64,000 nucleotides of DNA, from positions 1-64,000 of the forward strand of contig JABWBH010000018.1 in assembly GCA_013360585.1 (NCBI GenBank), read 5' to 3'. The stretch comes from Phycisphaerae bacterium. GTDB lineage: Bacteria; Planctomycetota; Phycisphaerae; UBA1845. Below are positions 2,045 through 50,882 of the stretch, piece by piece. The position numbers and the translations under genes are program-made. Below the pieces are notes generated by a model that saw only the letters and a list, made by a program, of their open reading frames with translations, ran no database searches and was not told the origin of the DNA. Every line of letters begins with the position of its first letter. Position 1 is the first letter of the stretch.

Positions 2045-5000
2045 GTGGATACGTCATCGGTTTCAAAACGTGTTCAGCTTCGTGAGCAGCTTGCGGGGAA
2101 GCACCTGCTCGTGACCGGGTCCACCGGTTTTCTGGCGAAGGTGTTCGTCGAGAAGACGCTGCGTTGCGTGGACACGATCGGAGGGGTTCACCTTCTGGTG
2201 CGGTCGCGGGCGGACGGGCGGGCGCCGCGGCAGCGCGTACTGCACGAAGTGCTGGGCTCGACGGCGTTCGACCGGCTGCGGGCGTCGCTGGGCGACGGGT
2301 TCGCGCGGTTGTGCGAGGAGAAGGTTCACGTCGTTGCGGGGGATCTGACGCGCGAGAAGTTCGGGATGCCTGACGCGGAGTACGCGGCGCTGTGCGGGCG
2401 GATCGACGTGGTGGTCAACAGCGCGGCGACGGTGACGTTCGACGAGCGGCTGGACCTGGCGCTGGAGCTGAACACGTTCGGTCCGCAGCGTTTGCTGGCG
2501 TTCGCGCGGGACGCGGGAAACGTTCCGTTTCTGCACGTTTCGACGTGTTACGTGTGCGGGATCCGCAGCGGCGTGATCGTCGAGGATTTCAGCGCTCCGG
2601 AAGCGGCGCGGGAGCGCTTCCCGCGTACGCCGGACGGCGCGTTCGACCTGGACCGCATTGTGGCGATGCTCAGGGAGGTCTGCACGGGGATTCTGGGTCG
2701 GTACGAGGGGGAGAACGAGCGCTGCCGGCGGGAGTTGATCGACGCGGGGATGTCGTCGGCGCGGCAGTACGGGTGGAACGACACGTACACGCTGACGAAG
2801 TGGCTGGCGGAGCAGTTTCTCGTCCGCGATCACGGACCAGTCCCTCTGGCGGTGCTTCGTCCGGCGATCATCGAAGGCGGATACGACGAACCGGCGCCGG
2901 GCTGGATCGACGGGATGCGGATGGCGGACCCGCTGCTGGTCGCCTACGGTCGCGGGAAGCTGAAGGATTTTCCGGCGCGGCCGGACGTTCCGCTGGATCT
3001 GATTCCGGTGGACCTGGTGGCGAACGCGATGCTGGCGGCGATCCCGCTGGAGGCGGCGGGCGCGGCGGACGTGCCGGTGTATCACTGCGCGTCGAGCGAC
3101 CGCAATCCGCTGCTGATCCGGCAGTTCACGGGGTACATGCATGAGGGGTTTCATCATCGTCCGCTGACGGACGACGATCACCGTCCGGTATTCCCCGCGC
3201 CGCTGAAGCTGATCGACGGGCGCGAGTTTCAGGAGTCGTGGCAGCGGCGACTGAACCGCGTCGAGCGGATCAAGAATCTGCTGTCGCGCGTGGGGATCAA
3301 GGGGGAGTGGGCGCGGCGCGTGTCGATGGCGCGGCGTCAGATCGAGCAACTGCTCTACTTCGGTAAGATTTACACGCCTTACACGCACCTGGACGTGCGT
3401 TTCGCCTGCGACCGGACGGAGAAGATGTTTGTGCGGCTGGACGCGGCGGATCAGGCGATGCTGCCGTGCGACGTGCGGCGGCTGGACTGGGGCGAGTACA
3501 TCGTTCACCGGCACATTCCGGGGCTGCGGAACTACGTCCTGGGCGCGGGGGCGGAGCCGAGCGCGCGTCTCGTGGCGATGCGTGAGGCGGGCGGCGCCGC
3601 GCAGCGGCCGACGGACGCGCTGCAATCGGACAGTATTTTCGAGGTGTTCCGCCGGGTGGCGAAGGCGTTTCCGGACAAGCCGGCGCTTCAGGTGATGCGC
3701 GACAAGAAGTGGATGCGGTACACGTACGACGACGCGTGCCGGGCGACGGGAGTGATCGCGAGGCGGCTGGCGGAGCGGGGGATCGTCGCGGGGGATCGGG
3801 TCGCGTTGTGCGCCGAGAACGGACCGGAGTGGGGTCTGACGTACCTGGCGCTGATGCGCGCCGGCGTGACGGCGGTTCCGATGGATCCTCAGCTTCGCGG
3901 GGAGGAGGCGTGGGAGCATCTGCGCTTCGTGGGGGGGAAGCTGATGTGCGCCGGTCGCACGACGTTTGAGAAGCTCGAAGCCTACCGCAAAGCGAACGAC
4001 GCGCCGCTGGCGTTGCTGGCGGATCCCTTCGTTCCGCCGCCGGGAGCAAGCCGCGACGACGGTCCGGAACCGGCGGTGATCTCCGGGGCGGAAACCGCGT
4101 CGATTCTTTTCACGAGCGGGACGACGGTGGCACCCAAGGCGGTGCAATTGACGCACCGCAATTTCATCGCCAACACGCGGGCGCTGCTGGAGCGTCACCC
4201 GTTGAGGCCGTCGGATGAATTTCTCTCAGTCCTGCCGATCTATCATGCGTTCGAGTTCACGGGCGGGTTTCTTGCGCCGCTGTCGAGCGGGGCGACGATC
4301 ACGTATCTGGACCAGCTCAAGGGGCCGGAGATCGTCGCGGCGATGCAGGCGACGGGGACGACAATGATGCTTGTCGTGCCGCGGCTGCTGCGGATGTTTC
4401 ATGATTCGATCCGCACCCGGGTCGCAACGCTCAGCGCGTTCAAGCAGTTCATGTTCCGGTGGCTGGAGCGGTTGTCGGACTGGACGGGTCGGCGGTTCGG
4501 GAGGGTGTTGTTCGGTTCGATCCACCGGCAGTTCGGCGGGCGGTTGCGGATGTTCGTGTCGGGGGGGTCGGCGCTGGATCCCGAGCTGTTTCATGCGTTC
4601 CGGCGGTGGGGGTTCCCGGTCTGCGAAGGCTACGGTCTGACGGAGACGGCGCCGGTGCTGACGGTGAGCACGGTGGAGGGGGCGCGTCCGGGGTCGGTGG
4701 GTCCGCCGCTGTCGAACATCGAGCTGGAAATCCGCAACCTGAATCTTGAGGGGATCGGGGAAGTCTGGGTGCGCGGACCGAACTGCACGAGCGGTTACCT
4801 CAACAACCGCGCGGCGACGGAGGAACTCATTGCAGACGGGTGGCTGCGCACGGGCGATCTGGGCTGGCAGGACGGGGAGGGGAACCTGTACCTGACGGGG
4901 CGTGCGAAGGATCTGATCGTGACGTCGTCGGGGAAGAACGTATACCCGGACGAGGTCGAGTTCCGCTACCGCGAGCTGCCTTACGTGAAGGAGTTGTGCG

Positions 5001-6277
5001 TGCTGGCGATGCCCTGCGAGCGGACGCACGGCGAGGCGGTTCACGCGGTGGCGGTGCTGGACCGGTCCGCGGCGCCGGATCTGGATCCGTCTTCGATCGA
5101 GCGCGAGGTTCGGAACGCGGCGGCGGAGATCGCGGAGACGCTGCCGAGTCACATGCGGATCACGACGTTTCACTTCTGGGAGAACGACCTTCCGAAGACG
5201 TCGACGCTGAAGGCGAAGCGGGGCTTGATCCGGGACATGCTGCTGACGCGGGGGCTTGCGGCTTCTCGCACGGCGACGGCGACGGCGGCGCCCGCGTCGC
5301 TCGACCTTTCCGCGCCCGGACCCGCGGCGGTGGCGGGGATTCTGGCGCGAGTGTCGCGCCAGCCGGTCGAGGCGATCCACCCGCACGCGCACCTGCTGCT
5401 GGACCTCGGGATCGACAGCATCGCGCGTCTTGAGGTGGTCAGCGAGCTGGAGTCGACGTTCCGACTCAAGGTGCCTCAGAAGGACGCGGCGGAGCTGGCG
5501 CGGGTGAGCGACGTGCTGGCACTGGTGGGGGCGCGCAAACCGGTGGCGGGCGCGCGGCCCGACGCCGAGGTTTTCGCGCGCAGCGTGCTTGCGCGGGACG
5601 ACGGGGGCTCGATCAACGGACAGGCGCCGGCGGCGTTGCAACCGGTGCGCTGGGTCATTCGCGGCGGGGCGGCGGCGTTCATGAACACGTACGTGCGCGT
5701 CGCGGCGCGCGGCCTTGAGCATCTGCCTGCGCGGGGTGCGTTCGTGCTGGCGCCGAACCACGCCTCGCACCTGGACTCGCCCGCCGTGCTGACGGCGATC
5801 GGCGGTCGGCGCCGGGTCTGGGTGGCGGCGGCCGAGGATTATTTCTTCAACACGGCGGTCAAGCGTTTTCTTTTCGGCAAAGTGTTCGACACGATCCCCT
5901 TTGACCGTCACGCGGACGGGATTGCGGGCCTGCGGCGCTGCGCCGAGGCGCTGCGCAAGGGCGACGGGCTGCTCATATTTCCGGAGGGGACTCGGTCGCA
6001 GACAGGGGCAATCCAGCCTTTCAAGATCGGTCCGGCGGTGCTTGCGGCGGAGGCGGGTGTCCCGATCGTCCCGGTTCACATTCATCGCGCGTATGATCTT
6101 TGGCGCAAGGGGCAGCGTTTTGTGCGTCCCGGGACGGTGCGCGTCACGTTCGGCGCGCCAGTCGCTCCGCCCGACTTCACCCGCCCTGAGGTGGATCGTT
6201 ACCACGCCTACCGGGACATGATGGAGCGCGTCGAGCAGTCGGTTCGTCGCTTGTCGCGGGAGGCCGCCGCTTCATGA
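2045..6277 (+). CDS. Four-domain fatty acyl reductase / acyl-AMP ligase / ACP / PlsC acyltransferase (ElbD-like)
   Basis: The 1410-residue protein has four domains in order. Residues about 15-500 are an NAD(P)-dependent thioester or fatty acyl reductase of the male-sterility family, with TGSTGFLAK at 24-32, HVST at 164-167 and the YxxxK pair Y248/K252. Residues about 525-1060 are an acyl-adenylating enzyme with FTSGTTVAPK at 689-698, YGLTETAP at 863-870, TGD at 936-938 and a Lys-rich end at 1051-1058. Residues about 1095-1165 are an acyl carrier domain with LGIDS and the phosphopantetheine serine S1125. Residues about 1205-1390 are a PlsC acyltransferase with NHASHLD at 1238-1244 and FPEGTRS at 1312-1318. 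All key residues are present. The set suggests that a fatty acid is activated, held on the ACP, reduced to an alcohol or transferred to a glycerol backbone. The layout matches ElbD, the ether-lipid enzyme of Myxococcus. The start is GTG; the stop overlaps the next gene by ATGA. Confidence 0.9.
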   Translation: MDTSSVSKRVQLREQLAGKHLLVTGSTGFLAKVFVEKTLRCVDTIGGVHLLVRSRADGRAPRQRVLHEVLGSTAFDRLRASLGDGFARLCEEKVHVVAGDLTREKFGMPDAEYAALCGRIDVVVNSAATVTFDERLDLALELNTFGPQRLLAFARDAGNVPFLHVSTCYVCGIRSGVIVEDFSAPEAARERFPRTPDGAFDLDRIVAMLREVCTGILGRYEGENERCRRELIDAGMSSARQYGWNDTYTLTKWLAEQFLVRDHGPVPLAVLRPAIIEGGYDEPAPGWIDGMRMADPLLVAYGRGKLKDFPARPDVPLDLIPVDLVANAMLAAIPLEAAGAADVPVYHCASSDRNPLLIRQFTGYMHEGFHHRPLTDDDHRPVFPAPLKLIDGREFQESWQRRLNRVERIKNLLSRVGIKGEWARRVSMARRQIEQLLYFGKIYTPYTHLDVRFACDRTEKMFVRLDAADQAMLPCDVRRLDWGEYIVHRHIPGLRNYVLGAGAEPSARLVAMREAGGAAQRPTDALQSDSIFEVFRRVAKAFPDKPALQVMRDKKWMRYTYDDACRATGVIARRLAERGIVAGDRVALCAENGPEWGLTYLALMRAGVTAVPMDPQLRGEEAWEHLRFVGGKLMCAGRTTFEKLEAYRKANDAPLALLADPFVPPPGASRDDGPEPAVISGAETASILFTSGTTVAPKAVQLTHRNFIANTRALLERHPLRPSDEFLSVLPIYHAFEFTGGFLAPLSSGATITYLDQLKGPEIVAAMQATGTTMMLVVPRLLRMFHDSIRTRVATLSAFKQFMFRWLERLSDWTGRRFGRVLFGSIHRQFGGRLRMFVSGGSALDPELFHAFRRWGFPVCEGYGLTETAPVLTVSTVEGARPGSVGPPLSNIELEIRNLNLEGIGEVWVRGPNCTSGYLNNRAATEELIADGWLRTGDLGWQDGEGNLYLTGRAKDLIVTSSGKNVYPDEVEFRYRELPYVKELCVLAMPCERTHGEAVHAVAVLDRSAAPDLDPSSIEREVRNAAAEIAETLPSHMRITTFHFWENDLPKTSTLKAKRGLIRDMLLTRGLAASRTATATAAPASLDLSAPGPAAVAGILARVSRQPVEAIHPHAHLLLDLGIDSIARLEVVSELESTFRLKVPQKDAAELARVSDVLALVGARKPVAGARPDAEVFARSVLARDDGGSINGQAPAALQPVRWVIRGGAAAFMNTYVRVAARGLEHLPARGAFVLAPNHASHLDSPAVLTAIGGRRRVWVAAAEDYFFNTAVKRFLFGKVFDTIPFDRHADGIAGLRRCAEALRKGDGLLIFPEGTRSQTGAIQPFKIGPAVLAAEAGVPIVPVHIHRAYDLWRKGQRFVRPGTVRVTFGAPVAPPDFTRPEVDRYHAYRDMMERVEQSVRRLSREAAAS

Positions 6278-6984
6278 GCGGAGGACCGGATCACGCGGCG
6301 CGGACCGGGGCATTTTTCGACGTCGACGGGACGTTGGTGGGCACGACGATCGTTCACTACTACGCTTATCTGCGGACGCTGAACATGTCTCCGCTGGCGC
6401 GGCGGGCGTGGCGAGCGGCGTTCCTGATGAAATGCGTCGGTTATCTCGTGCTTGATCGCATCGACCGGACGTGGTTCAACCGCGTCTTCTACCGCAGTTA
6501 CCGCAGCGTGGCCGTCGGGATGGCGAAAGCGGCTGCCGCGGACTGCTACCGCGACGTGATGCGTCCGAGGCGCTTTCCCGAGGGCGTTTTCCGGGTTGAG
6601 CGGCATCGGCGGGAAGGTCGGCGGGCGGTGCTGGTCACGGGGTCGATCGACTTTCTGATCCGCCCTCTGGCGGAGGAACTCGGGGCGGATCTCCTCGCGG
6701 CGCGCCTGCTGGAGCAGGGGGGGCGTTTCACGGGCGAACTGGACGGTCCGCCGATCAGCGAAGGCGAGAAGGCGCGGCGCATGCGTGCGTACGCGGAGGC
6801 GAACGCGATCGATCTGTCGGAGAGCTTCGCTTACGGCGACAGCATCGCGGACCTTCCGATGCTCGAGGCGGTGGGACATCCCGTGGCGGTCAACCCTGAT
6901 GCGGCGCTCAAGCGAGAGGCGCAGCGCCGGGGGTGGGCGATCGAGACGTGGGGGCTGGACGTCGGAAGGGAGCGAGCCGGTTGA
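6274..6984 (+). CDS. HAD-IB family phosphatase
   Basis: This is a 236-residue haloacid dehalogenase-type hydrolase of the SerB/CicA-like IB group. The N-terminal FDVDGTL motif supplies nucleophile D16 and general acid D18. Motif II appears as LVTGS near residue 116, and motif IV is YGDSIADLPML near 187-197. Residues 30-90 form a helical cap. Members act on phosphoserine or on lysophosphatidic and other glycerol phosphates. Its start codon overlaps the stop of the acyltransferase fusion (ATGA), so the two are probably translationally coupled. That suggests removal of phosphate from an alkyl- or acyl-glycerol phosphate made by the neighbour, but the substrate is inferred. Confidence 0.88.
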   Translation: MSGGPDHAARTGAFFDVDGTLVGTTIVHYYAYLRTLNMSPLARRAWRAAFLMKCVGYLVLDRIDRTWFNRVFYRSYRSVAVGMAKAAAADCYRDVMRPRRFPEGVFRVERHRREGRRAVLVTGSIDFLIRPLAEELGADLLAARLLEQGGRFTGELDGPPISEGEKARRMRAYAEANAIDLSESFAYGDSIADLPMLEAVGHPVAVNPDAALKREAQRRGWAIETWGLDVGRERAG

Positions 6985-8213
6985 AAGGGATTGAGTTCCG
7001 CCGCAGCCTGCCGCGTTATGTCCTGCTGAAGCTGCTGGGGGCGCGGGGCAAGCGGCTGCACGGGGTCCGGGCGCTGCTGCCGATCCGTTACGGCGAAGTC
7101 GCCGAGCCGCGTCTGCCTGGTCCGGCGTGGGTGCGCGTGCGTCCCGCGTATGCGGGGATCTGCGGGTCGGATCTCTCGACGATCTTCGCGAAGGGCAGCC
7201 CGTACCTGGCGCCGATCACGTCGATGCCTTTTGTGCTCGGTCATGAGGTGGTGGGACGGGTGGTCGAGACGGGGGTCGGCGTAACGCGGTTTCGGGAGGG
7301 CGACCGCGTCGTCCTCCACCCCGCGCTGGGCTGCCGGGTGCGCGGGATCGAGCCGCTGTGCGACTCGTGCCGGCGTGGTCGGGACGCGCTCTGCCGCAAC
7401 ATCACGCGCGGCGCGATCGCCCGCGGCGTGCAGACCGGATACTGCCGCGACACGGGCGGCGGGTGGAGCGAAGGCTTCGTCGCGCATGAGTCGCAGCTTT
7501 ACCCGGTTCCCGCGGAGGTTGATGACGCGACGGCGGTGCTGATCGAGCCGTTTTCCTGCTGCCTGCACGCCGCGCTGAGCGCGCCGCTCGACCGGGGGGA
7601 CACGGCGCTGGTGCTGGGGTGCGGGTCGATCGGGTTGTTGACGATCGCGGCGCTGCGCGCCTCGGGTTGCGCGGCGCGGATCGTCGCGGCCGCGAAATAT
7701 GATCATCAGCGGGTGCTGGCGAAGGCGCTCGGGGCGGACGAACTGGCGCCCGGCGGGGGGGCGCTCCGAGGGAGGTATGAGGCGTGGGGGAAGCTCGTCG
7801 GCGCGGACGTGCTGAAACCGGAGTGGGGCAAGCCGACGGTGATCGGCGGCGCGGATGTCACATTCGACTGCGTGGCGAGCAGCGCGTCGATCGACGACGC
7901 CGTCCGGTTTACGCGCAGCGGCGGAACGATGATGCTGGTGGGCATGCCGTCGGTGCCCTCGGGCGTGGACTGGACGCCGCTGTGGTTCAAGGAGTTGACG
8001 CTCAAGGCGACGTACGCTTACGGTCCCGAACGCGTCGGCGAGCGGACCCTCGACACGTTCGACTACGCGATCGAGTTATTCCGGACGTGGGGACCGAGGT
8101 TGACCCCGATGTTGTCGCGCCCTTTTGAACTGGCGGATTACACCGGGGCGCTGGCATGTGCGGCGGATACGGGGCGCAGCGGGGCGGCGAAAACCGTGTT
8201 CCGCATCGGTTAG
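6981..8213 (+). CDS. Zinc-dependent medium-chain alcohol dehydrogenase
   Basis: This 410-residue MDR enzyme has the catalytic zinc ligands C61 (GICGSD) and H88-E89 (GHEVVG), structural-zinc cysteines around 118-138 (CDSCRRG...C) and a Rossmann GCGSIG at 213-218. I chose TTG at 6981, which overlaps the previous TGA (TTGA) and has GGAAGGGAG about ten bases upstream; the GTG at 6933 would overlap the phosphatase by 52 bases. The reaction is reversible oxidation of an alcohol or ketone with NAD(P). In this operon it could reduce an alkyl-dihydroxyacetone intermediate or oxidise a fatty alcohol, but neither is shown by the sequence. The insertion around 140-165 is somewhat long for the family. Confidence 0.88.
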   Translation: MKGIEFRRSLPRYVLLKLLGARGKRLHGVRALLPIRYGEVAEPRLPGPAWVRVRPAYAGICGSDLSTIFAKGSPYLAPITSMPFVLGHEVVGRVVETGVGVTRFREGDRVVLHPALGCRVRGIEPLCDSCRRGRDALCRNITRGAIARGVQTGYCRDTGGGWSEGFVAHESQLYPVPAEVDDATAVLIEPFSCCLHAALSAPLDRGDTALVLGCGSIGLLTIAALRASGCAARIVAAAKYDHQRVLAKALGADELAPGGGALRGRYEAWGKLVGADVLKPEWGKPTVIGGADVTFDCVASSASIDDAVRFTRSGGTMMLVGMPSVPSGVDWTPLWFKELTLKATYAYGPERVGERTLDTFDYAIELFRTWGPRLTPMLSRPFELADYTGALACAADTGRSGAAKTVFRIG

Positions 8214-8266
8214 CGACGGCGAAGCGCCGCGATTGCGATCGGCGCCCGACACAAGACTGGAGCGAG

Positions 8267-9853
8267 ATGGCATCCAACGGAAACATCCACGTCGTCACAA
8301 AGGCAGACCCGCCGTTTCTGATGCACCGCGGCGAAAGTTTTGTCCGCGAACGCCTGCCCGAAGGCGCACACGTCATCTATCCGAACCCGCCGCTGCCGGC
8401 GCTGCCCGACGCACGCGAGGCGATCCGCCGCGCGATCGACCACCCCCTCGGGCAGGATCCGCTGGACGCGCAACTGGCGCGCGGCGACATCCGTCGCGTG
8501 ACGATCGCTTTCGACGACGTGTCGCTGCCGCTGCCTCGCATGCGCCGTCCGGACGTGCGCCAGCTCGTGATGGAAGTCCTGCTGGACAAGCTGGATCGGG
8601 CGGGCGTCACCGATGTCCACCTCATCTGCGCGATCTGCCTGCACCGGCGCATCACGCCGCGCGAGATGAACTACATGCTCGGTCCGGACCTTTTCCGGCG
8701 CTTCTTCCCCGACCGCTTGTACAACCACGACGCGGAAGACCCGGACGGAAACGTTCACCTCGGCACGACGGAGAAGGGCGAAATCGTCGAGATCAACCGT
8801 CGCGCGGCGGAGAGCGACCTGCTGCTTTATGTGAACATCAACCTCGTCACGATGGACGGGGGACATAAGTCCGTGCCCGTCGGCCTGGCGACCTACCGCA
8901 GCGTGCGCCATCATCACAATGCGCACACGATGCTGCACGACAGCAGTTACATGGACCCGCCGGCGAGCCTTTTTCACCGGTCCTGCGAGAGGATGGGCGC
9001 GATCGTCGCGAAGCACGTGAAGGTCTTTACCGTCGAGACGACGCTCAACGGCGACTTGTTCGACCCGACGCTGGCGTTTCTTCAGAAGCGGGAGCATGCG
9101 TGGGGCGCGAGGGACCGCCTGATGTATTCAGCGATGAAGACGGCGCTGAACCTCGCGCCGTTTCCGCTGCGGCGCAAGCTCTACAATGCGCTGCCGGCGC
9201 CTTACGGATTGACCGGGGTTCACGCGGGCGACACCGGCGCGGTTCACGAGCGAACGCTGGTCAACGTGGACCGGCAGCAGAACGTCAAGGTGGACCGGCA
9301 GTACGACGTCGTCCTCGTCGGTCTGCCGAGCATCGGTCCCTACAACGTCAACAGCATCCTCAACCCGATCCTCGTGCAGTGCCTGTCGGCGGGTTACTTC
9401 TTCAATTTCTACCGAGGCAGACCGCTTGCGCGGCGCGGCGGAGTGATGATCGTTCATCATCCGGTTCAGGAGGCGTTCAATACGCTGCACCACCCGTCGT
9501 ACAAGGACTTCTACGACGAGTGCCTGCCGCAGACGCGCGATCCGAAAGAACTGGAGCACCGCTTCGAGAAGCGCTACGCCGAAAGCGACCGGTATCGTGA
9601 TCTTTATCGCAACTCGTACGCCTATCACGGGGTCCACCCCTTCTACATGTGGTACTGGGGCGCGCACGGGATGGCGCACTTCGGCAAGGTGATCGCGGTG
9701 CAACCGCAGAGCCGGCAGGCCTGCCGACGGATCGGCTTTGAACCGGCGGCGTCGTTGGCTGAGGCGCTGGAGATGGCGAAAGCGGTGGTCGGTCCCGACC
9801 CCAGCATCGCGTACTATCACTGTCCGCCGGTGCTCATGTGCGACTTGCGCTGA
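8267..9853 (+). CDS. LarA-like (DUF2088, lactate racemase N-terminal domain) protein
   Basis: A 528-residue protein whose first half matches the nickel-pincer racemase family. RVTIAFDDVSLPLP (77-90) corresponds to the LarA start segment, H126 lies in CLHRRIT, and GGHKSVPVG at 198-206 contains K201 at the place of the pincer-bearing lysine. The second half is His- and Tyr-rich and I do not recognise it beyond the family. ATG at 8267 follows GGAGCGAG; longer frames from 8156 overlap the dehydrogenase. It is the last gene of the lipid operon, 53 bp after the dehydrogenase. No cofactor-making LarB, LarC or LarE gene lies in the window, so the substrate and cofactor are open. It could be a 2-hydroxy-acid racemase or epimerase, or something new. 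Confidence 0.8.
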   Translation: MASNGNIHVVTKADPPFLMHRGESFVRERLPEGAHVIYPNPPLPALPDAREAIRRAIDHPLGQDPLDAQLARGDIRRVTIAFDDVSLPLPRMRRPDVRQLVMEVLLDKLDRAGVTDVHLICAICLHRRITPREMNYMLGPDLFRRFFPDRLYNHDAEDPDGNVHLGTTEKGEIVEINRRAAESDLLLYVNINLVTMDGGHKSVPVGLATYRSVRHHHNAHTMLHDSSYMDPPASLFHRSCERMGAIVAKHVKVFTVETTLNGDLFDPTLAFLQKREHAWGARDRLMYSAMKTALNLAPFPLRRKLYNALPAPYGLTGVHAGDTGAVHERTLVNVDRQQNVKVDRQYDVVLVGLPSIGPYNVNSILNPILVQCLSAGYFFNFYRGRPLARRGGVMIVHHPVQEAFNTLHHPSYKDFYDECLPQTRDPKELEHRFEKRYAESDRYRDLYRNSYAYHGVHPFYMWYWGAHGMAHFGKVIAVQPQSRQACRRIGFEPAASLAEALEMAKAVVGPDPSIAYYHCPPVLMCDLR

Positions 9854-20389: not shown

Positions 20390-20464
20390 GGCGGCGTAGC
20401 TCAGCTGGTTTAGAGCGGCGGATTCATAACCCGCAGGTCTCCGGTTCAAGTCCGGACGCCGCTA
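20390..20464 (+). tRNA. tRNA-Met (anticodon CAT)
   Basis: The 75-base cloverleaf folds with acceptor GGCGGCG (20390-20396) against CGCCGCT (20457-20463), with one G-U closing pair and discriminator A464. The D stem is GCTC/GAGC and the T arm is TCCGG-TTCAAGT-CCGGA. The anticodon loop TTCATAA carries CAT. The last anticodon-stem pair is an A-C mismatch. CCA is not encoded. The D loop and general shape suit elongator Met; an Ile tRNA with lysidine at C34 cannot be fully excluded. An initiator tRNA is unlikely because the anticodon stem lacks the three G-C pairs. Confidence 0.93.
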
Positions 20465-28252: not shown

Positions 28253-29698
28253 ATGACGAGCGTACCCTACCTTCTGTCCCGGCACATTCTCTGCCCGCTG
28301 CATGAGCGCGTCCTGGGTCGGCGGACGTTCGCACGCCTGCGCCAGATCGAGCGCGAGCAGTGGCGAAGCCCGGTGGAGGTCCGCCTGCTGCAGATGCGTC
28401 GGCTGCGATCGCTCCTGCGGCACGCCGTCCGGAACGTTCCTTTTTACACCGCCCGGCACAAGCCGACCTCACGGGCTGAGCGAGACGGAGAGCCGGATCG
28501 TTTGCACCTCCGCGCGCTGCCCACCTTGAGCAAGCAGGACATCCGCGCGCACACGGACGAACTGATCTGGCCGGAGTCGCCGGGGAGACTGCGGCCGTAT
28601 TCCACCGGAGGATCGTCCGGCGATCCGCTGCGTTTCTTCATCGACCGTCCGCGACAAGCCTCGGACGCGGCGGCGCGCATTCTGACGCACCGGTGGTTCG
28701 GCGTGGACGCAGGTCACCGGGAGCTGTTTTTGTGGGGGTGTCCGATCGAACTGACCCGCACGGACCGCCTGCGCGCCTGGCGCGACGGGCTTTTCAATCA
28801 CCGGCTGCTCAGCGCGTTTGACCTGTCGCGGGAGCGCATGCGCGAGTATACCGACGTGTTCCGTCGGTTCCGCCCGCGCTGCCTTTTCGGATATCCGAGC
28901 ACCTTGTCCCGGTGGGCGGAACACCTGATGACGTATGAGGAGACACTGCCGATCGGGTGTCTCCGCGCCGTATTCGTTACCGGCGAAGTCTGCGACCCCG
29001 TCCAGCGGCGCACGCTCGAACGCTGCTTCCAGGTTCCGGTTGCGGACGGTTACGGCAGCCGGGAAGCCGGCTTCATCGCGCATCAATGCCCCGCCGGTTC
29101 AATGCACGTCATTGCCTCGGAAGTTCTTGTCGAGGTGCTCGACGGCGACCGACCGGCGCGCGAGGGCGAGTTCGGTGAGATCGTCGTCACGCACCTGCAT
29201 GCCTTCGGAATGCCCTTCATCCGCTACCGGACCGGCGATTTCGGACGTCTGCTGCCCGGACGTTGTCCGTGCGGCCGGGGTTGGCCGAGGATGGACGCGG
29301 TGCAGGGGCGACGGACCGACGGCATCCACCTCCCCGACGGGCGGTTCATGCACGGCTTGGCGGTCATTTACGTTCTGCGGGAAACACCGGGCATCGAACA
29401 TTTCCAAGTGAGGCAGACCTCGGACTTCGCCCTTGAGGTGCAGGTCGTCGCCTGCGAGGGGGCCCCGTCGGATGTGCTGCGACGGGTCGAGTCGGGATTG
29501 CGCCGCGTCGTGGGCGATCAGATTCCGGTCCGGGTGCGGCGGACGGCGACAATCGAGCGCGCTGCGTCCGGCAAACACCGGCCGGTGATCTCGGATGTCG
29601 ACGCTTCAGCCGCATCGTCAAGCTCCGGCGCAAGCCGCACTCCCCGCTCGGCCGTTGCGGTCGGTTCGGACGCGGCGCTTGAGGAGGCGATTGCGTAG
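28253..29698 (+). CDS. CapK / phenylacetate-CoA ligase-like adenylating enzyme
   Basis: The 481-residue protein belongs to the PaaK/CapK branch of acyl-adenylating enzymes. It has the N-terminal RHAVRNVPFY segment, the nucleotide-binding STGGSSGDP at about 117-125, DGYGSREAGFIA near 263-274, and FIRYRTGDFG near 322-331. Capsule-locus members (CapK) are thought to activate or transfer acyl or amino groups in polysaccharide synthesis. It is the first gene of a three-gene set with a FemAB-like protein 4 bp downstream and a glycosyltransferase. The C-terminal tail is Ser/Ala-rich. The substrate is unknown. Confidence 0.85.
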   Translation: MTSVPYLLSRHILCPLHERVLGRRTFARLRQIEREQWRSPVEVRLLQMRRLRSLLRHAVRNVPFYTARHKPTSRAERDGEPDRLHLRALPTLSKQDIRAHTDELIWPESPGRLRPYSTGGSSGDPLRFFIDRPRQASDAAARILTHRWFGVDAGHRELFLWGCPIELTRTDRLRAWRDGLFNHRLLSAFDLSRERMREYTDVFRRFRPRCLFGYPSTLSRWAEHLMTYEETLPIGCLRAVFVTGEVCDPVQRRTLERCFQVPVADGYGSREAGFIAHQCPAGSMHVIASEVLVEVLDGDRPAREGEFGEIVVTHLHAFGMPFIRYRTGDFGRLLPGRCPCGRGWPRMDAVQGRRTDGIHLPDGRFMHGLAVIYVLRETPGIEHFQVRQTSDFALEVQVVACEGAPSDVLRRVESGLRRVVGDQIPVRVRRTATIERAASGKHRPVISDVDASAASSSSGASRTPRSAVAVGSDAALEEAIA

Positions 29699-29702
29699 GC
29701 GC

Positions 29703-30851
29703 ATGAGCGTTCAACTTCTGGATTACGCGAACGATGTCACGACGTCGGGCTCGCCTGTGTCCGCCGCCGAGCGCATTCGAACCGGGGGAGGCACCGCACG
29801 AGCGACGGAACCCCCGCTTGTGATCCGCGAGTCCTCATCCGTGGAATCCCAGCGCTGGGACGCCTTTGTTCAGTCGCATCCGCAGGGGACAATCTTTCAC
29901 ACGCAGGCCTTCCGTCAAGCCGTCGCTTCGACGTTTCCGCACCGTGCCAGATACCTGACGGCGGAGCGAGGCGGGCGGATCGTCGGCGTCCTGCCGATGT
30001 TCGACGTGCGGACCGGGTGGGCGGGGCGGCGGCTGGTGAGCGTGCCTTACGGCGTGGGCGGCGGCGCGCTGGCGGAAGATGAGCCGACAGCCAACGCGCT
30101 GGCGGACGCGGCGGTGGCGCTGGCGGCGGAATTGTGCTGCGCTGTGATCGATCTTCGTGGCGGCGCGTCGCGGTTGCGAGGGTTTGAGCGAGTCGACGGT
30201 TATCTCGGTTTCCGGCGCGAACTTCCCGCGAACCCGTCTGACATCGCAACGTGGATTCCGCGCAAGGCCCGGGCGGAAGTCCGTCATGCCCGGGAGCGCC
30301 ACGGCGTCACGATCGACGAAGGCGACGAGCACCTGAACCTCGCGTGGCGCCTTTATTCGGAGAATATGCGGCGGCTGGCGTCGCTGAACTATCCTCGTCG
30401 GTTCTTCGCTGCGCTCCTCGAAGCGACGCGGGATCAACACCGTATCACGCTCGCACGCCGGCGGGGCGTTCCGGTGGCGGCGCTGGTCAGTTTCACGCAC
30501 CGCGACGCGGTCATGCCTTACTTTTTCGGCGCGACGCGCGAGGCACGCAGTTGCGGCGCTGCCCACCTCCTTTATGCGGAGCTTGCGGAGTGGGCGACGG
30601 AGCGCGGGCTGCGCACGTTCGACTTCGGGCGGTCCCGCGCCGGAAACACGGGCAGCGCCGATTTCAAGCGGTTTTTCGGCTTCGAGGCGACGGTGCTGCC
30701 TTATCAACGGTGGACCGCACCGAGCATGAACGTCGCCGATCCCTCGCCCGCCAGCCCGAAAGTCCGTTTCGCGCGCCGTTTCTGGCCGCGACTGCCGCTG
30801 TGCGTCACCCGTCCCCTCGGAGCGTGGTTGTCGCGGTGGGTTACGGGGTGA
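29703..30851 (+). CDS. FemAB-like GNAT transferase (exopolysaccharide-associated)
   Basis: From ATG 29703 the protein has 382 residues. The core WDAFVQSHPQGTIFHT (52-67) and YLTAERGGRIVGVLPM (84-99) are hallmarks of the FemAB-like family that accompanies XrtA-type exosortase loci. The C-terminal acyltransferase half contains AAHLLYAELAEWA and FDFGRSRAGNTGSADFKR. Such proteins probably add an amino acid or acyl group to a cell-envelope sugar or peptide. The N-terminal 35 residues are poorly conserved. It starts 4 bp after the CapK-like gene, so the two are co-translated. Confidence 0.83.
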   Translation: MSVQLLDYANDVTTSGSPVSAAERIRTGGGTARATEPPLVIRESSSVESQRWDAFVQSHPQGTIFHTQAFRQAVASTFPHRARYLTAERGGRIVGVLPMFDVRTGWAGRRLVSVPYGVGGGALAEDEPTANALADAAVALAAELCCAVIDLRGGASRLRGFERVDGYLGFRRELPANPSDIATWIPRKARAEVRHARERHGVTIDEGDEHLNLAWRLYSENMRRLASLNYPRRFFAALLEATRDQHRITLARRRGVPVAALVSFTHRDAVMPYFFGATREARSCGAAHLLYAELAEWATERGLRTFDFGRSRAGNTGSADFKRFFGFEATVLPYQRWTAPSMNVADPSPASPKVRFARRFWPRLPLCVTRPLGAWLSRWVTG

Positions 30852-30910
30852 CGAACGACGAAACCGAAGCAGAGCCTGAACAAGACCGACGCTGACGAAG
30901 GAGCTTGAAG

Positions 30911-32161
30911 ATGAGAATCCTCTACCTGGCGCACCGCGTTCCGTTTCCGGCGAACAAAGGCGAGCGCATCCGCGCCCTGCGCCTGATCCGCCACCTCGCC
31001 CAGCGGCATGAAGTCTGGTGCGCATGCTTCCGGGACGACCCGACCGAGCGGCGCGCGGAAGAACTGGAGACGATCGTCCACCGTCTCGGGGTCGTGGACC
31101 TTCCGCGGCGCGGCGCGTTGCTGCGGGCGGCGAAGTCGGCGCTGACCGGCGCCACCCTGACCGAGGGGTTCTACTCCCACCCCGCAATGACCACCCTCGT
31201 GAACGCGTGGATGAACCAGACCCGCTTCGACGCCGTGGTCGCGTTCTCGTCCTCCACGGCAGGTCTTGCCCTGAGTGTCCCGGCTGCGCGCAGGATCCTG
31301 GACCTTTGCGACATCGACAGCGCCAAGTGGCGCGAATACGCGGACCGGTCGGCGTGGCCCGCAAGCGCCGTCTACGCGATGGAGGCGCGGCGCCTGGCGG
31401 TGAAGGAACTTTCGTGGATCGACGCCTTCGACGTAAGCGTCGTCGCCTGCCGCCGCGAGCTTGAGGCGATCTCGGACGCACCGCTGCGCCGCAAGGCACG
31501 GATCGTGCGCAACGGCGTCGATCTTCCGTCCGAGATAGGAGAAACGTCCGGCGCCTCCGGACCGCCGGTTATCATCTTCGTCGGAGATCTTTCTTACCGC
31601 CCCAACGTCGAGGGACTGACGTGGTTTATCGAACACTGCTGGCCGGGGATCGTCACCCGGTCGCCTCATGCGGAGCTGCACGTCGTCGGACGCAGCCCGA
31701 CGCGGCGGATCGCGCGCCTTGCCGGGACACACGGCGTGCGCGTCTTCGCCGACGTGCCCGACGTCGCGCCTTTCCTTCGCACGGCGCACGTCAGCATCGC
31801 CCCGATCCACGTCGCACGCGGCGTGCAGAATAAGGTGCTCGAAGCCCTGGCGTGGGCAAAGCCCGTCGTGATGACGTCCGCCGTCAGTCGCGGACTGGAC
31901 GCAGGCTTGAGCGAGCCGTGGATCACCGCCGACGACGCCGGGGCATTCATTGACGGTGTGACGCGCCTGCTCGCCGACGCGGATCTTCGCCGCGCGATCG
32001 GCGGCGCGGCACGGTCGTTCGCGCGCCTCGAGTACGCCTGGGGACCGCAGTTGGCGGCGTTCGAGCGGCTTGTGACCGGTGAAAGAACCGTGGCGAGACC
32101 GGCGCGCCTTCGTTCCGCAGCAACGTCTGAACTGAGCGGAACGTTTACCTCCGGGGAATGA
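30911..32161 (+). CDS. Glycosyltransferase of the exosortase-associated GT4 type
   Basis: The 416-residue protein has a GT-B fold. It opens with MRILYLAHRVPFPANKGERI, characteristic of the XrtA-linked sugar transferases. The C-terminal donor domain has FVGDLSYRPNVEGL, LHVVGRSP and GVQNKVLEALAWAKPVV. It should transfer an activated sugar to a lipid-linked or polymer acceptor in the cytoplasm. ATG 30911 was chosen over TTG 30905 because AAGGAG lies seven bases before it. It ends the three-gene set and converges on the ABC exporter operon 29 bp away. No exosortase gene lies in this window. Confidence 0.87.
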   Translation: MRILYLAHRVPFPANKGERIRALRLIRHLAQRHEVWCACFRDDPTERRAEELETIVHRLGVVDLPRRGALLRAAKSALTGATLTEGFYSHPAMTTLVNAWMNQTRFDAVVAFSSSTAGLALSVPAARRILDLCDIDSAKWREYADRSAWPASAVYAMEARRLAVKELSWIDAFDVSVVACRRELEAISDAPLRRKARIVRNGVDLPSEIGETSGASGPPVIIFVGDLSYRPNVEGLTWFIEHCWPGIVTRSPHAELHVVGRSPTRRIARLAGTHGVRVFADVPDVAPFLRTAHVSIAPIHVARGVQNKVLEALAWAKPVVMTSAVSRGLDAGLSEPWITADDAGAFIDGVTRLLADADLRRAIGGAARSFARLEYAWGPQLAAFERLVTGERTVARPARLRSAATSELSGTFTSGE

Positions 32162-46710: not shown

Positions 46711-48189
46711 TCAGCACGCGCCGCGCAGGAACGTCCCCAGCGTCCGGAACAGAATCATCAGATCGAGTTCGAGGCATCCGTGCTTGAGGTAGTAAAGGTC
46801 ATATTGCAGCTTGCGCCGCGCGTCTTCGACCGACGAGCCGTATTTGTAGTTGATCTGCGCCCAACCGGTAAGTCCGGGCGCGATGAGGTGGCGCTCCGGA
46901 TAATACGGCAGGACGGTGTTGAGCGACGCGACAATGTCCGGGCGCTCCGGACGCGGGCCCACGAGCGACATCCTGCCGCGGACGATGTCGAACAACTGCG
47001 GCAGTTCGTCCAGCCGCGTGCGCCGGAGGATGCGGCCGATGCGCGTCACGCGCGGGTCGTTCGGCGTGGCCCAGATGCTGGCGCCGCTCTCCGCGTCGGT
47101 CCGCATTGTGCGGAACTTGTGCAGGCGGAACGTGCGCCCGCGCAGCCCGACGCGCTCCTGGGCGTAGAACACCGGACCGCCGTCGTCCAGCTTGATCGCC
47201 GCCGCGATCAGCGCCCACAACGGCAGCGTGACGACCAGCCCGAGCGCCGCGACAACAAAGTCGATCACCCTCTTGAGTGAGACGGACTCGGCTTCGCCCA
47301 CTTTCAGGTCCGCAAAGAGAAACCAGTCTGGCGTCAGCTCGTCCACGAGGATGCGCCCGGCGGCTTTCTCGTAGAACGTCGCCTCGTTCGTCACGCGCAG
47401 ACCGCGGTGCAGGCAGCGGATGATACCGGTAACGAGGTCCGGATCCCGCGCGGCCTCCGCCCCGACCACGATGTCGGTGACCTCGAGCTTCGTGCAGAGC
47501 GACTCCAGTTCGTCATGCGTTCCAACGACGCTCGAATCCGCCGCTCCCTCCGGTGAATGCCCGTCGGGCGTCGTGCAGCCCACGAGGCGGTACTCGCGTA
47601 TCCCGTCCTGATCGAGCGCGCGCCGCAGCGACGCGAGCAGCCCCGTCGAACCCACCACCAGCAGCGATCGCCGGACATCATGAATCAGCGACCAGGCTCC
47701 GAACCGCAGCACCAGGCTCGACACCAGGTAAACACCCAGCGCCCCGCACACCAGCCGCCGGCTGACCACCGCATAAAGCAGGATGTAGATCACCGCGTAG
47801 GCCAGGATGACGGCGGCGAACGTGGTCAGCAGCGTCCGGATCATGATCCGCGAACGACTGCGAAGCGTCTCGCGCCCGTACAACCCGAAAACGAGGCTGG
47901 CCGCCGTGAAGCTCCCCATGAAAACGGCCTGCGCCGTCCAGATGTGGACATGTTCGACGGTGTAACCGGTGCTGACTTCGCCGACGATGGCGTATCCGGC
48001 GAAAAACCCGACCGCCACCAGCAGCGCGTCCAGCGACATCCAGGCGGAGTCCGGAAGCTCCAGCAGCAGTTGACCCAGCCGGGCTCCGGCCGCGCGAGCG
48101 CGCGGCGGCGCGCTCTCGCGGCCGCACGTCACGGTCAGCAGATTCCGAATGCCCTCCGGGGCTCCCCTCGCCGTCAACGGCGCATCCAT
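46711..48189 (-). CDS. Polyprenyl-phosphate sugar-phosphate transferase (exopolysaccharide initiation)
   Basis: The 492-residue enzyme starts exopolysaccharide synthesis by moving a sugar-1-phosphate to undecaprenyl phosphate. Four to five membrane helices lie in residues 50-165, then a Rossmann-like region (LLVVGSTGLLASL), and the catalytic bacterial sugar transferase domain after about residue 290: KRVIDFVVAALGLV, KFRTMRTDAE, DELPQLFDIVRGRMSLVGPR and APGLTGWAQI. All are the normal family blocks. ATG 48189. It may work with the glycosyltransferase set at 28253-32161, but they are 14 kb apart. Confidence 0.93.
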   Translation of the reverse strand: MDAPLTARGAPEGIRNLLTVTCGRESAPPRARAAGARLGQLLLELPDSAWMSLDALLVAVGFFAGYAIVGEVSTGYTVEHVHIWTAQAVFMGSFTAASLVFGLYGRETLRSRSRIMIRTLLTTFAAVILAYAVIYILLYAVVSRRLVCGALGVYLVSSLVLRFGAWSLIHDVRRSLLVVGSTGLLASLRRALDQDGIREYRLVGCTTPDGHSPEGAADSSVVGTHDELESLCTKLEVTDIVVGAEAARDPDLVTGIIRCLHRGLRVTNEATFYEKAAGRILVDELTPDWFLFADLKVGEAESVSLKRVIDFVVAALGLVVTLPLWALIAAAIKLDDGGPVFYAQERVGLRGRTFRLHKFRTMRTDAESGASIWATPNDPRVTRIGRILRRTRLDELPQLFDIVRGRMSLVGPRPERPDIVASLNTVLPYYPERHLIAPGLTGWAQINYKYGSSVEDARRKLQYDLYYLKHGCLELDLMILFRTLGTFLRGAC

Positions 48190-48522: not shown

Positions 48523-49356
48523 ATGACCCGATCGATCGTCAGATTCTTGAATGTCGCCGGCCTTGCGCGGCGTGGTCCGGCCGTCGGTGCGGCCCGCGGA
48601 CGACGAGCCTCAGCGCCGGCGGGCGCCTGGTTGATCGCCCTGGCGCTTTCCGGGTGCGCTTCGGCTCCGCGGGAAACACCCTGGGTCGCGCCGCCCCGCG
48701 TCTCGTGGGAGGATCTGACTCCGTCGCCGGTGCCGGTTGTGCGCGACGGATATCGCATTCTCGATGAGGCGCCGTCGCGCGGGCGCTTTCCTTGCGCGAT
48801 GTCGGTGAGCCGGATGGCGAGCGAGGTTCTCGACGCGGATCAGGACGGTCCGCTCGTCGTCCCCGCCACGCCGCACAACGAGTTCCTGATCTGGAACAAT
48901 CTCTTTGACAATCTCCCTGCGGTATCTGAAGCGTTTCCCGTCGTGGAGCGGAACCTGGGTGAGCGTCCCGCCGACGCGGCGCTCGTCCTTTCGGCGGCGA
49001 GGGCATTTCACGCCGGGGTGAGCATGATCTACGCGGTCAACGCCGTCGCGCAGGATCGTTATGAGATGCTCGGCGTCCTGCATGACGCGAACACCGGACA
49101 ACCGATCGCCGTGCTTCATGCGGAAGGTGAACGCGCGCCCCGACCCGAGGATTACGAGACCACCTACAACAACGTGGATGCGTGGGATTATGAAGCACGG
49201 GCGCTCGCCCGGCGCAAGTTCAAAAAGCTCGCCGTCGCGTGCCTTCGTGACCTGATTGCCAACGACGTTCCGCAGAAAACACAGGTTCCGGAAGGTTGGG
49301 TTCCGGATCGTCCGCTCGCCCCGGTTCACTGGCCTCCGCGCTACTTCCACCCATGA
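48523..49356 (+). CDS. Lipoprotein of unknown function
   Basis: The 277-residue protein has a type II signal with basic N-terminal stretch, hydrophobic WLIALAL and the lipobox LSGC (C45). The mature part has a conserved-looking core (NEFLIWNNLFDNLPAV..., YETTYNNVDAWDYEARALA) but I recognise no family. ATG 48523 follows GGAGG. Its stop overlaps the VanZ gene by ATGA, so the two are coupled and may function together at the cell envelope. Confidence 0.78.
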   Translation: MTRSIVRFLNVAGLARRGPAVGAARGRRASAPAGAWLIALALSGCASAPRETPWVAPPRVSWEDLTPSPVPVVRDGYRILDEAPSRGRFPCAMSVSRMASEVLDADQDGPLVVPATPHNEFLIWNNLFDNLPAVSEAFPVVERNLGERPADAALVLSAARAFHAGVSMIYAVNAVAQDRYEMLGVLHDANTGQPIAVLHAEGERAPRPEDYETTYNNVDAWDYEARALARRKFKKLAVACLRDLIANDVPQKTQVPEGWVPDRPLAPVHWPPRYFHP

Positions 49357-50882
49357 AAGACGGGTTGACGCCGCGGTCCCGGACGGATCGCTCCCGCCCG
49401 GTGATTGAGGCGGCGGGCGCCCTGTATCTTTTGTTCCTGCTTGCCACGTCGCTGGCGCCGCTGGATTTCGGTCAGCCGCTTCCGCAACCCGCGCTGGAAC
49501 GGATGTTCACCGTGGCGTTCGGTCGCGTGGCGTGGGCGGAACTGGCGGCGAACACCGTCTTGTATGTCCCTTTCGGGGCGCTGGCGCGGTGGCTCCTTAT
49601 CAACCGGAGACCGGGAATCCCGCTCGCCTCGGTCGTAGCGCTGAGCTTCGCCGCCGCCGTCAGTGCGGGGCTTGAGGCGACACAGGCGTTCTCCCCGACC
49701 CGGGTGTCTTCCGTCGTGGATCTCGCCGCCAATTTCGGCGGAGCGGCGCTGGGCGTCCTGGCCAGTCGGCTGACCGAGCGGATGTCCCGCCGCCGTCAGA
49801 CTCGATTCTGGCGTTTGCGCGGCGAACTGCCGCTCGAACTGCGCGCGAAGTTTTACGTTCTTCTGCTGACGGTCATCGCCGCAGCGCCTTACTCGTTTTC
49901 GCTCGATCCGCTCTGGGTGGAGCGGGCGTGGAGCAAGGCGGTTTTTAAACCCTTTGATGAATACGTCACCGGCAACGCAGCAGGCGGATCGCTGGAAGCT
50001 CAGGCGGGAGAACGCCGCCGGGTGCAATCGACCGCGCTGGATGACGGCGCTGAGGCGGCAGCTTTTTTCATGCTCGCGTGGGTGGTGTTTACCTGTTTGA
50101 GGAACGAATACCGGTTCGGGACGGCTGGTACCACCTTGCTGACGTTGTGGACCGTGGCGACGCTGGCGATCGGATTCAGTGTGATGCAGTTTCTGATCGT
50201 CAACCGTGGATTCGTCGCCACCGATCTTGTGATCCGGGTCTGCGGCGGATGCGCGGGACTGCTCCTTGCGATCTGCGCCGGTCGAAGCGTTGCAGGACAG
50301 CGCGACGCCGCGTGGCCGTGCCGACGTCGCACCGCCCGTGTGCTTGCGCTGGCGACCGTGGGGTACATTGTGCTGCGTGGCTCGTTTCCGCTCATGTTTC
50401 GTCCGGCAAGCACTCTTCCCGATCTGATGTCGCCCGAGACGATGTTTCCTTTTTTCGGGTATGCGCGCGGTCGGTTCGACCTTGCGATCACGGACCTGGT
50501 TGCGAAGACTTACGCGTACCTCCTGCTCGGGACGGCGCTCGCCGCAGCTCGCGTGAACGACATGAAATCCGATGCTCGGTGCATGATGGCACGTTCCGCC
50601 GCCGTCGCCCTGGGCGTGGCGATCGTTGTCGAGGGGCTTCAGATTTTCATCGTGTCGCGGGTTCCGTCGATCACCGATCTCCTGCTTGCGGTTCCAGCCG
50701 CAGCGCTGGGCGCCTACCTGATGTGCGGGCTGAAATCCGTCGTAAAAGAGGTTCGACCCGCACGGAACGAACCCCCGGGCGACGCGCCGCCCCCCGGTGG
50801 GCGACGCTGGACGCTTTCGGACGCCCTGATCTCACAACTGGTCGCCCCCCGCAGTGACGCCGTCAAACCGCTCGGCCAGTAA
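49353..50882 (+). CDS. Integral membrane protein with two VanZ-like regions
   Basis: The 509-residue protein has about ten hydrophobic segments. The first 150 residues form a VanZ-like unit (NTVLYVPFGALAR, LEATQAFSPTRVSSVVDLAAN). A second unit lies near the end (LLGTALAAARV, VEGLQIFIVSRVPSITDLL). Each has the Glu-x-x-Q pair seen in the family. VanZ-like proteins are common in exopolysaccharide and exosortase loci, with unknown action. It is coupled to the lipoprotein gene. Confidence 0.85.
   Translation: MKDGLTPRSRTDRSRPVIEAAGALYLLFLLATSLAPLDFGQPLPQPALERMFTVAFGRVAWAELAANTVLYVPFGALARWLLINRRPGIPLASVVALSFAAAVSAGLEATQAFSPTRVSSVVDLAANFGGAALGVLASRLTERMSRRRQTRFWRLRGELPLELRAKFYVLLLTVIAAAPYSFSLDPLWVERAWSKAVFKPFDEYVTGNAAGGSLEAQAGERRRVQSTALDDGAEAAAFFMLAWVVFTCLRNEYRFGTAGTTLLTLWTVATLAIGFSVMQFLIVNRGFVATDLVIRVCGGCAGLLLAICAGRSVAGQRDAAWPCRRRTARVLALATVGYIVLRGSFPLMFRPASTLPDLMSPETMFPFFGYARGRFDLAITDLVAKTYAYLLLGTALAAARVNDMKSDARCMMARSAAVALGVAIVVEGLQIFIVSRVPSITDLLLAVPAAALGAYLMCGLKSVVKEVRPARNEPPGDAPPPGGRRWTLSDALISQLVAPRSDAVKPLGQ

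Follow-up and report, generated by a model that had tools for sequence, protein, structure and literature searches.

An orphan nickel-cofactor enzyme of the LarA superfamily, here called LarAH, likely has a role in making an unusual membrane lipid, which is perhaps an ether lipid. Its gene is the last of four same-strand open reading frames (ORFs) at 2045-9853 (+) in a 64,000-nt stretch of DNA from a Phycisphaerae bacterium (contig JABWBH010000018.1, positions 1 to 64,000, forward strand), which is called the window below. In order, these ORFs encode an ElbD-like protein, a HAD phosphatase, a Zn-dependent polyol-type dehydrogenase (ADH) and the LarA-like protein itself. Fatty acyl reductase (FAR), HAD phosphatase, ADH, LarAH and PlsC acyltransferase very likely form one pathway that includes a nickel-pincer-nucleotide (NPN) enzyme. 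This enzyme is seen as a core part of the lipid pathway because LarAH co-occurs with FAR genes, because larB, larC and larE (larBCE) adjoin the operon in some genomes, and because the genome that contains the window has one LarA together with larBCE. A preliminary description of this DNA had treated the LarA-like protein as a passenger; instead, it is the most consistent partner in the operon and its most novel part.

The four genes and their proteins

The preliminary description holds for the position, order and identity of the four genes (Table 1), with which Pfam agrees, and also for the two overlaps that it took as signs of coupling: an ATGA at 6274 between the ElbD-like and HAD genes and a TTGA at 6981 between the HAD and dehydrogenase genes, both read in the sequence. 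It holds as well for the 1410-aa protein with FAR, acyl-AMP ligase, acyl carrier protein (ACP) and PlsC parts, whose active sites are intact. The dehydrogenase ORF is open further upstream, to GTG 6933, as is the LarA-like ORF, to ATG 8156. The probable start of the LarA-like gene is ATG 8267, which is preceded by GGAG and lies 53 nt beyond the dehydrogenase stop, so that this junction would be close and would not require an overlap. A chance arrangement of the genes is excluded, because homologues of all four proteins share their order in other genomes.

In the ElbD-like protein, FAR (aa ~12-500, with a C-terminal Sterile domain) is followed by the acyl ligase (~535-1055), the ACP with Ser1125, and PlsC (~1219-1346). 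Pfam matches are NAD_binding_4 (E 6e-61), Sterile (4e-9), AMP-binding (5e-71), AMP-binding_C, PP-binding (6e-9) and Acyltransferase (7e-23). The closest solved chain to the FAR domain is 7eoz, a fatty acyl-CoA reductase (E 5e-90). Motifs of all four parts are invariant among 13 aligned FAR-containing homologues with 31-41 percent identity to the window protein: TGxTGFL and YTxxK in FAR, TSGTT and TGDLG in the AMP ligase, DLGxDS in the ACP, and NHxSHxD and FPEGTRS in PlsC. The HAD phosphatase also has its motif, FFDVDGT, intact, and the solved chains closest to the dehydrogenase are ketose reductase and xylitol, butanediol and threonine dehydrogenases.

In a midpoint-rooted FAR tree, the window protein clusters with Phycisphaerae, and its planctomycete clade is nearer to the FAR of SAR202 and Actinomycetota than to another planctomycete clade of ElbD, which is divergent. 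Both planctomycete clades carry LarAH. The second one (loci L066 11087-15496, L065 1705-6135, L068, L071, L072 and others) has ~32 percent identity to the window protein and a long branch in the tree, and is possibly closer to the ElbD of myxobacteria. In two genomes of this clade, an HpnA/OleD-like SDR is found near LarAH or ElbD (L069 4631-5659; L066), recalling elbA and elbE of Myxococcus xanthus. There may have been more than one origin, or more than one spread, of the ElbD fusion.

The LarA-like protein is above the curated cut-off of NF052592, the LarAH 14/15/16 family. To our knowledge, LarA group 14/15/16 is an orphan NPN family to which no function or substrate has been assigned. With L183 and L184 as canonical LarA references, the equivalents of D72, H108, K184 (the NPN lysine) and H200 (the nickel ligand) are invariant in 93/93 aligned sequences; in the same alignment, the equivalent of H174 is missing and the loop is ~4 residues shorter than in canonical LarA. 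The best matches to a predicted LarAH structure (pLDDT 89.7) are the single-His LarA structures 9q3k (TMq 0.79) and 9q3j. A second catalytic histidine has been reported to be lacking in LarA groups 14 and 15 (PMC7583248, PMC12611868), and a Frankia group-14 LarAH showed 0/7 tested activities (PMC7583248). For groups lacking such residues, the survey authors proposed another hydride-mediated reaction (PMC7583248, PMC12611868). As judged from its residues, LarAH is probably not a simple racemase, with one catalytic histidine kept.

Two other assignments were considered for LarAH. A canonical lactate racemase was rejected on the two-histidine criterion, as H108 is kept and H174 is absent, and an enzyme without cofactor was rejected because the K184 and H200 equivalents are invariant and larB, larC and larE are present.

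Gene order, co-occurrence and cofactor supply

A genome scan by LarAH alignment gave 80 named loci. The preliminary description had proposed that the gene order around homologues be compared, and the exact order ElbD, HAD, ADH, LarAH does recur in several planctomycete metagenome-assembled genomes (MAGs), including Phycisphaerae. In dozens of Actinomycetota, the order is FAR-HAD fusion, ADH, LarAH, PlsC, and operons of this type are present in Frankia, Parafrankia, Solirubrobacter, Nocardioides, Actinopolymorpha, Acidimicrobiia, Thermoleophilia and others; the operon is also found in Chloroflexota. FAR, HAD and ADH lie upstream of LarAH on the same strand in 44 of the 51 loci with at least 5 kb of upstream sequence, and PlsC is directly downstream in 56 of the 74 loci with downstream room. 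FAR and HAD are one gene in Actinomycetota (782 aa in L133), and FAR and PlsC share one ORF in SAR202 (L120); thus, which two of the five functions are fused differs between lineages. Where planctomycete loci are split, HAD adjoins ElbD (G110, G130, G277) or LarAH (G164), and ADH is near LarAH in G277. In addition, a diacylglycerol (DAG)-kinase/YegS-like gene follows LarAH in 12 planctomycete loci. The same operon was not found on plasmids, where only remote LarA matches were obtained (<30 percent identity).

The presence of LarAH also follows that of FAR when whole genomes are considered. Among 392 genomes of Planctomycetota, an ElbD-like match occurs in 25 and NF052592 in 17, all of them within the 25. 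According to the extent of the alignment, 19 of these 25 carry the FAR part, and LarAH is present in 17/19 of them and in 0/6 of the FAR-less genomes. These LarAH carriers belong to at least seven families, and in most of the genomes ElbD and LarAH are on different contigs (in G171, they are 2.6 Mb apart). Consequently, linkage does not explain the co-occurrence, because the genes are unlinked in most planctomycete carriers. Among 199 genomes of Actinomycetota, 52 have LarAH above the cut-off and 57 have FAR-HAD, which is present in 52/52 of the LarAH genomes. Of the named LarAH genomes, 43/45 have FAR or ElbD and the remaining two keep HAD, ADH and LarAH adjacent; a Poribacteria MAG also has both an ElbD-like gene and LarAH. 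The distance matrices of FAR and LarAH correlate with r = 0.89 overall and 0.91 and 0.92 within two groups, values in which species history is included.

These patterns bear on whether the operon simply reproduces the Myxococcus elb pathway, ADH and LarA being unrelated passengers. In M. xanthus, elbB encodes a HAD protein and elbD a FAR/ACS/ACP/acyltransferase protein (Lorenzen 2014, as reviewed in PMC9131029), to which the HAD and ElbD-like proteins of the window correspond. However, in Actinomycetota without the ElbD fusion, FAR, HAD and PlsC still have ADH and LarAH as conserved neighbours, and LarAH tracks FAR in planctomycetes even when unlinked, which makes a simple copy very improbable. 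Mere chance neighbourhood of ADH and LarA was likewise rejected by the Actinomycetota synteny and by the co-occurrence of unlinked genes.

The genome of the window, which is 97 percent complete, has larB, larC and larE, all above their cut-offs, and a profile search finds LarAH as its sole Lar_N protein. Thus, its NPN supply is without any other known user. In other genomes, the three genes adjoin the operon at 7 loci, namely in four Solirubrobacter records, Nocardioides immobilis, a Nitriliruptoraceae MAG and one other actinobacterial MAG. Separately, six actinobacterial loci (L151 2605-3132 and five more) have a weak match to a small HypA-like (nickel metallochaperone) protein, which is encoded a few genes upstream of the operon.

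Perhaps the operon instead supplies fatty alcohols for ester products, such as waxes or acylated alcohols, and LarAH serves a secondary purpose, for instance the supply or recycling of a small hydroxy acid. A FAR that carries a Sterile domain belongs to the alcohol-forming type, and PlsC-type enzymes form esters. Nevertheless, this explanation is decidedly unlikely, as it does not account for the restriction of LarAH to FAR genomes (17/17 and 52/52), for its being the sole LarA in many genomes or for the joining of larBCE to the operon.

Possible products and reactions

By analogy, the product of a pathway that includes LarAH may be an alkyl ether lipid, which we hold to be an even bet. This reading is based on M. 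xanthus, in which most ether lipids depend on ElbD, and in which loss of elbD strongly reduces alkyl and vinyl ether lipids (PMC9131029). In such a pathway, the ligase, ACP and FAR would turn a fatty acid into acyl-ACP and then into a fatty alcohol, with the fused ligase and ACP loading the fatty acid in the planctomycete. The alcohol would be coupled to a C3 polyol-phosphate unit, forming the alkyl ether. The Zn dehydrogenase might set or reduce a C2 carbonyl, and LarAH might perform hydride chemistry on the C3 unit through its nickel-pincer cofactor. HAD would then remove the phosphate and PlsC would acylate the product, which the DAG-kinase-like enzyme of many planctomycetes could re-phosphorylate. 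What the analysis demonstrates is the gene content with its fusions, the synteny and co-occurrence, and the presence of intact NPN-binding residues and of NPN biosynthesis genes; we infer how the steps follow one another, that the product is an ether, and what LarAH catalyses.

The role of LarAH can be considered further by comparison with the MXAN_1676-1674 operon of M. xanthus, which encodes AGPS, a FAR-acyltransferase fusion and an SDR (PMC9131029). As the operon described here resembles this set minus AGPS and plus LarAH, LarAH is a candidate for the ether-forming step, or for a helper of it. Its cofactor could abstract a hydride at C2 in a unit of glycerol type to give a transient ketone, which would let the fatty alcohol displace a neighbouring leaving group (compare AGPS on acyl-dihydroxyacetone phosphate) before the hydride is returned. 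It seems unlikely that LarAH 14/15/16 itself forms the ether in a bacterial route to alkyl ether lipids that is free of AGPS. Searching the literature on Solirubrobacter, Acidimicrobiia and Phycisphaerae for ether lipids turned up general papers only.

A serious, although somewhat unlikely, alternative is that the products are alpha-hydroxy lipids or long-chain 1,2-diol lipids, in which the diol substitutes for glycerol. In this case, LarAH would act on a 2-hydroxy fatty acid, FAR would reduce the acid to a 1,2-diol, and the dehydrogenase, of butanediol/sorbitol type, would interconvert the diol and a hydroxyketone; HAD and a sphingosine-kinase-like lipid kinase would handle the phosphate, and PlsC would acylate. 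Every enzyme would thus keep its ordinary chemistry, the LarA superfamily being one that acts on 2-hydroxy acids (PMC7583248, PMC11770544). In addition, the dehydrogenase is closest to vicinal-diol and polyol enzymes, and the operon is found in Thermoleophilia and Chloroflexota. Long-chain diol lipids are known from members of both, Thermoleophilum (Thermoleophilia) and Thermomicrobium (Chloroflexota). By contrast, M. xanthus ElbD is tied to ether lipids and not to diols, and LarAH is without the second histidine required for epimerisation. For most carriers of the operon, we know of no long-chain 1,2-diols, which also counts against such a product.

A single pathway that includes LarAH and perhaps yields an ether lipid is still preferred, but several observations weigh against it. 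The Fisher values for co-occurrence (7e-28 in Planctomycetota and 1e-42 in Actinomycetota) treat kin genomes as independent and so overstate the certainty. Two planctomycetes with a FAR-type ElbD (G056, G141) are without this LarAH family. LarB above the cut-off was not found in 3 of 11 other genomes in which LarAH is the sole LarA, although these MAGs (~2 Mb) are perhaps incomplete. The likeness to elb noted in the preliminary description stands for the four-domain order and for the coupled HAD gene, as in elbD and elbB, but does not extend to elbE: no SDR gene was found in the window operon, which has the Zn-MDR dehydrogenase in its place. Finally, Pontiella strains carry ElbD homologues, and ether lipids were not detected in them (PMC11868695); thus, carrying an ElbD homologue is no guarantee of ether lipids.

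ElbD homologues in Planctomycetota MAGs have already been reported (PMC11868695), and planctomycete ElbD alone is therefore not new. A literature search linking LarA or DUF2088 with fatty acyl reductase returned nothing relevant. The main text of PMC7583248 has neither 'lipid' nor 'acyl', and its supplementary gene-context table may already list group-14 lipid genes. The operon joins two questions, namely how ElbD-type ether lipids arise without AGPS or the anaerobic PlsA/Ger reductases, and how single-His LarA groups 14 to 16 use NPN, and its cultured aerobic carriers include Solirubrobacter, Nocardioides immobilis, Actinopolymorpha and Frankia. If LarAH were the ether former, it would be the first NPN enzyme other than a racemase or epimerase, and the first in lipid synthesis. 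If the product is borne out, the gene could serve to mark organisms that produce ether (or diol) lipids in soils and sediments, environments in which biomarker sources are debated.

Features of the window and comparison with known systems

Outside the operon, the window encodes an uncommon fusion of two peptidases and a single tRNA (Table 1). The three adjacent genes at 28253-32158, together with the sugar transferase and the VanZ-like protein, possibly belong to a polysaccharide or exosortase-type cluster.

Table 1. Position of the operon genes and of other features in the window
Feature	Position	Strand	Evidence or remarks
ElbD-like 1410-aa protein	2045..6277	+	GTG start; Pfam, motif conservation, FAR-domain structure match
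HAD-IB phosphatase, 236 aa	6274..6984	+	Pfam HAD E 9e-37; TIGR01490 131 bits vs cut-off 98
Zn-dependent MDR dehydrogenase, polyol type, 410 aa from TTG 6981	6981..8213	+	Pfam ADH_N + ADH_zinc_N
LarA-like NPN enzyme, group 14/15/16, 528 aa from ATG 8267	8267..9853	+	NF052592 790 bits vs cut-off 740; Pfam Lar_N
tRNA gene	20390-20464	+	Sole Rfam match in the window
Two-peptidase fusion, 1417 aa	20517-24770	+	M14 zinc carboxypeptidase + DPP IV N-terminal + S9 prolyl oligopeptidase
Three adjacent genes	28253-32158	+	AMP-binding enzyme (weak match), FemAB/GNAT-like acyltransferase, glycosyltransferase
Bacterial sugar transferase	46711-48189
VanZ-like protein	49296-50882

Likened by its published description, the elb operon of M. 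xanthus shares with the window the four-domain FAR/acyl ligase/ACP/acyltransferase protein and the HAD gene. It also has the SDR genes elbA and elbE, and elbC, which has been called unknown in function (PMC9131029), whereas a Zn-MDR dehydrogenase and an NPN LarA homologue are found here. MXAN_1676-1674 is similar in combining FAR, acyltransferase and dehydrogenase, and the SAR202 FAR-PlsC fusion is comparable to its fused gene; unlike the present operon, however, it has AGPS and is without LarAH. In the part of PMC9426513 considered here, ElbD clusters of sponge Acidobacteriota and Poribacteria have the same four-domain core gene, with hydrolases and oxidoreductases on its flanks, and LarA is unmentioned. 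Among LarA proteins, the single-His enzymes of group 17 (Blautia, Streptococcus; 9q3j/9q3k; PMC12611868) are the best structural match and also miss the H174 equivalent, but they have Asn at this position and a carbohydrate gene context, in contrast to the ~4-residue-shorter loop and the lipid context of LarAH. The window protein conforms to LarA group 14/15/16 (NF052592) in its score above the cut-off and its conserved NPN-binding residues, and the conserved lipid-gene context of this group is supplied here.

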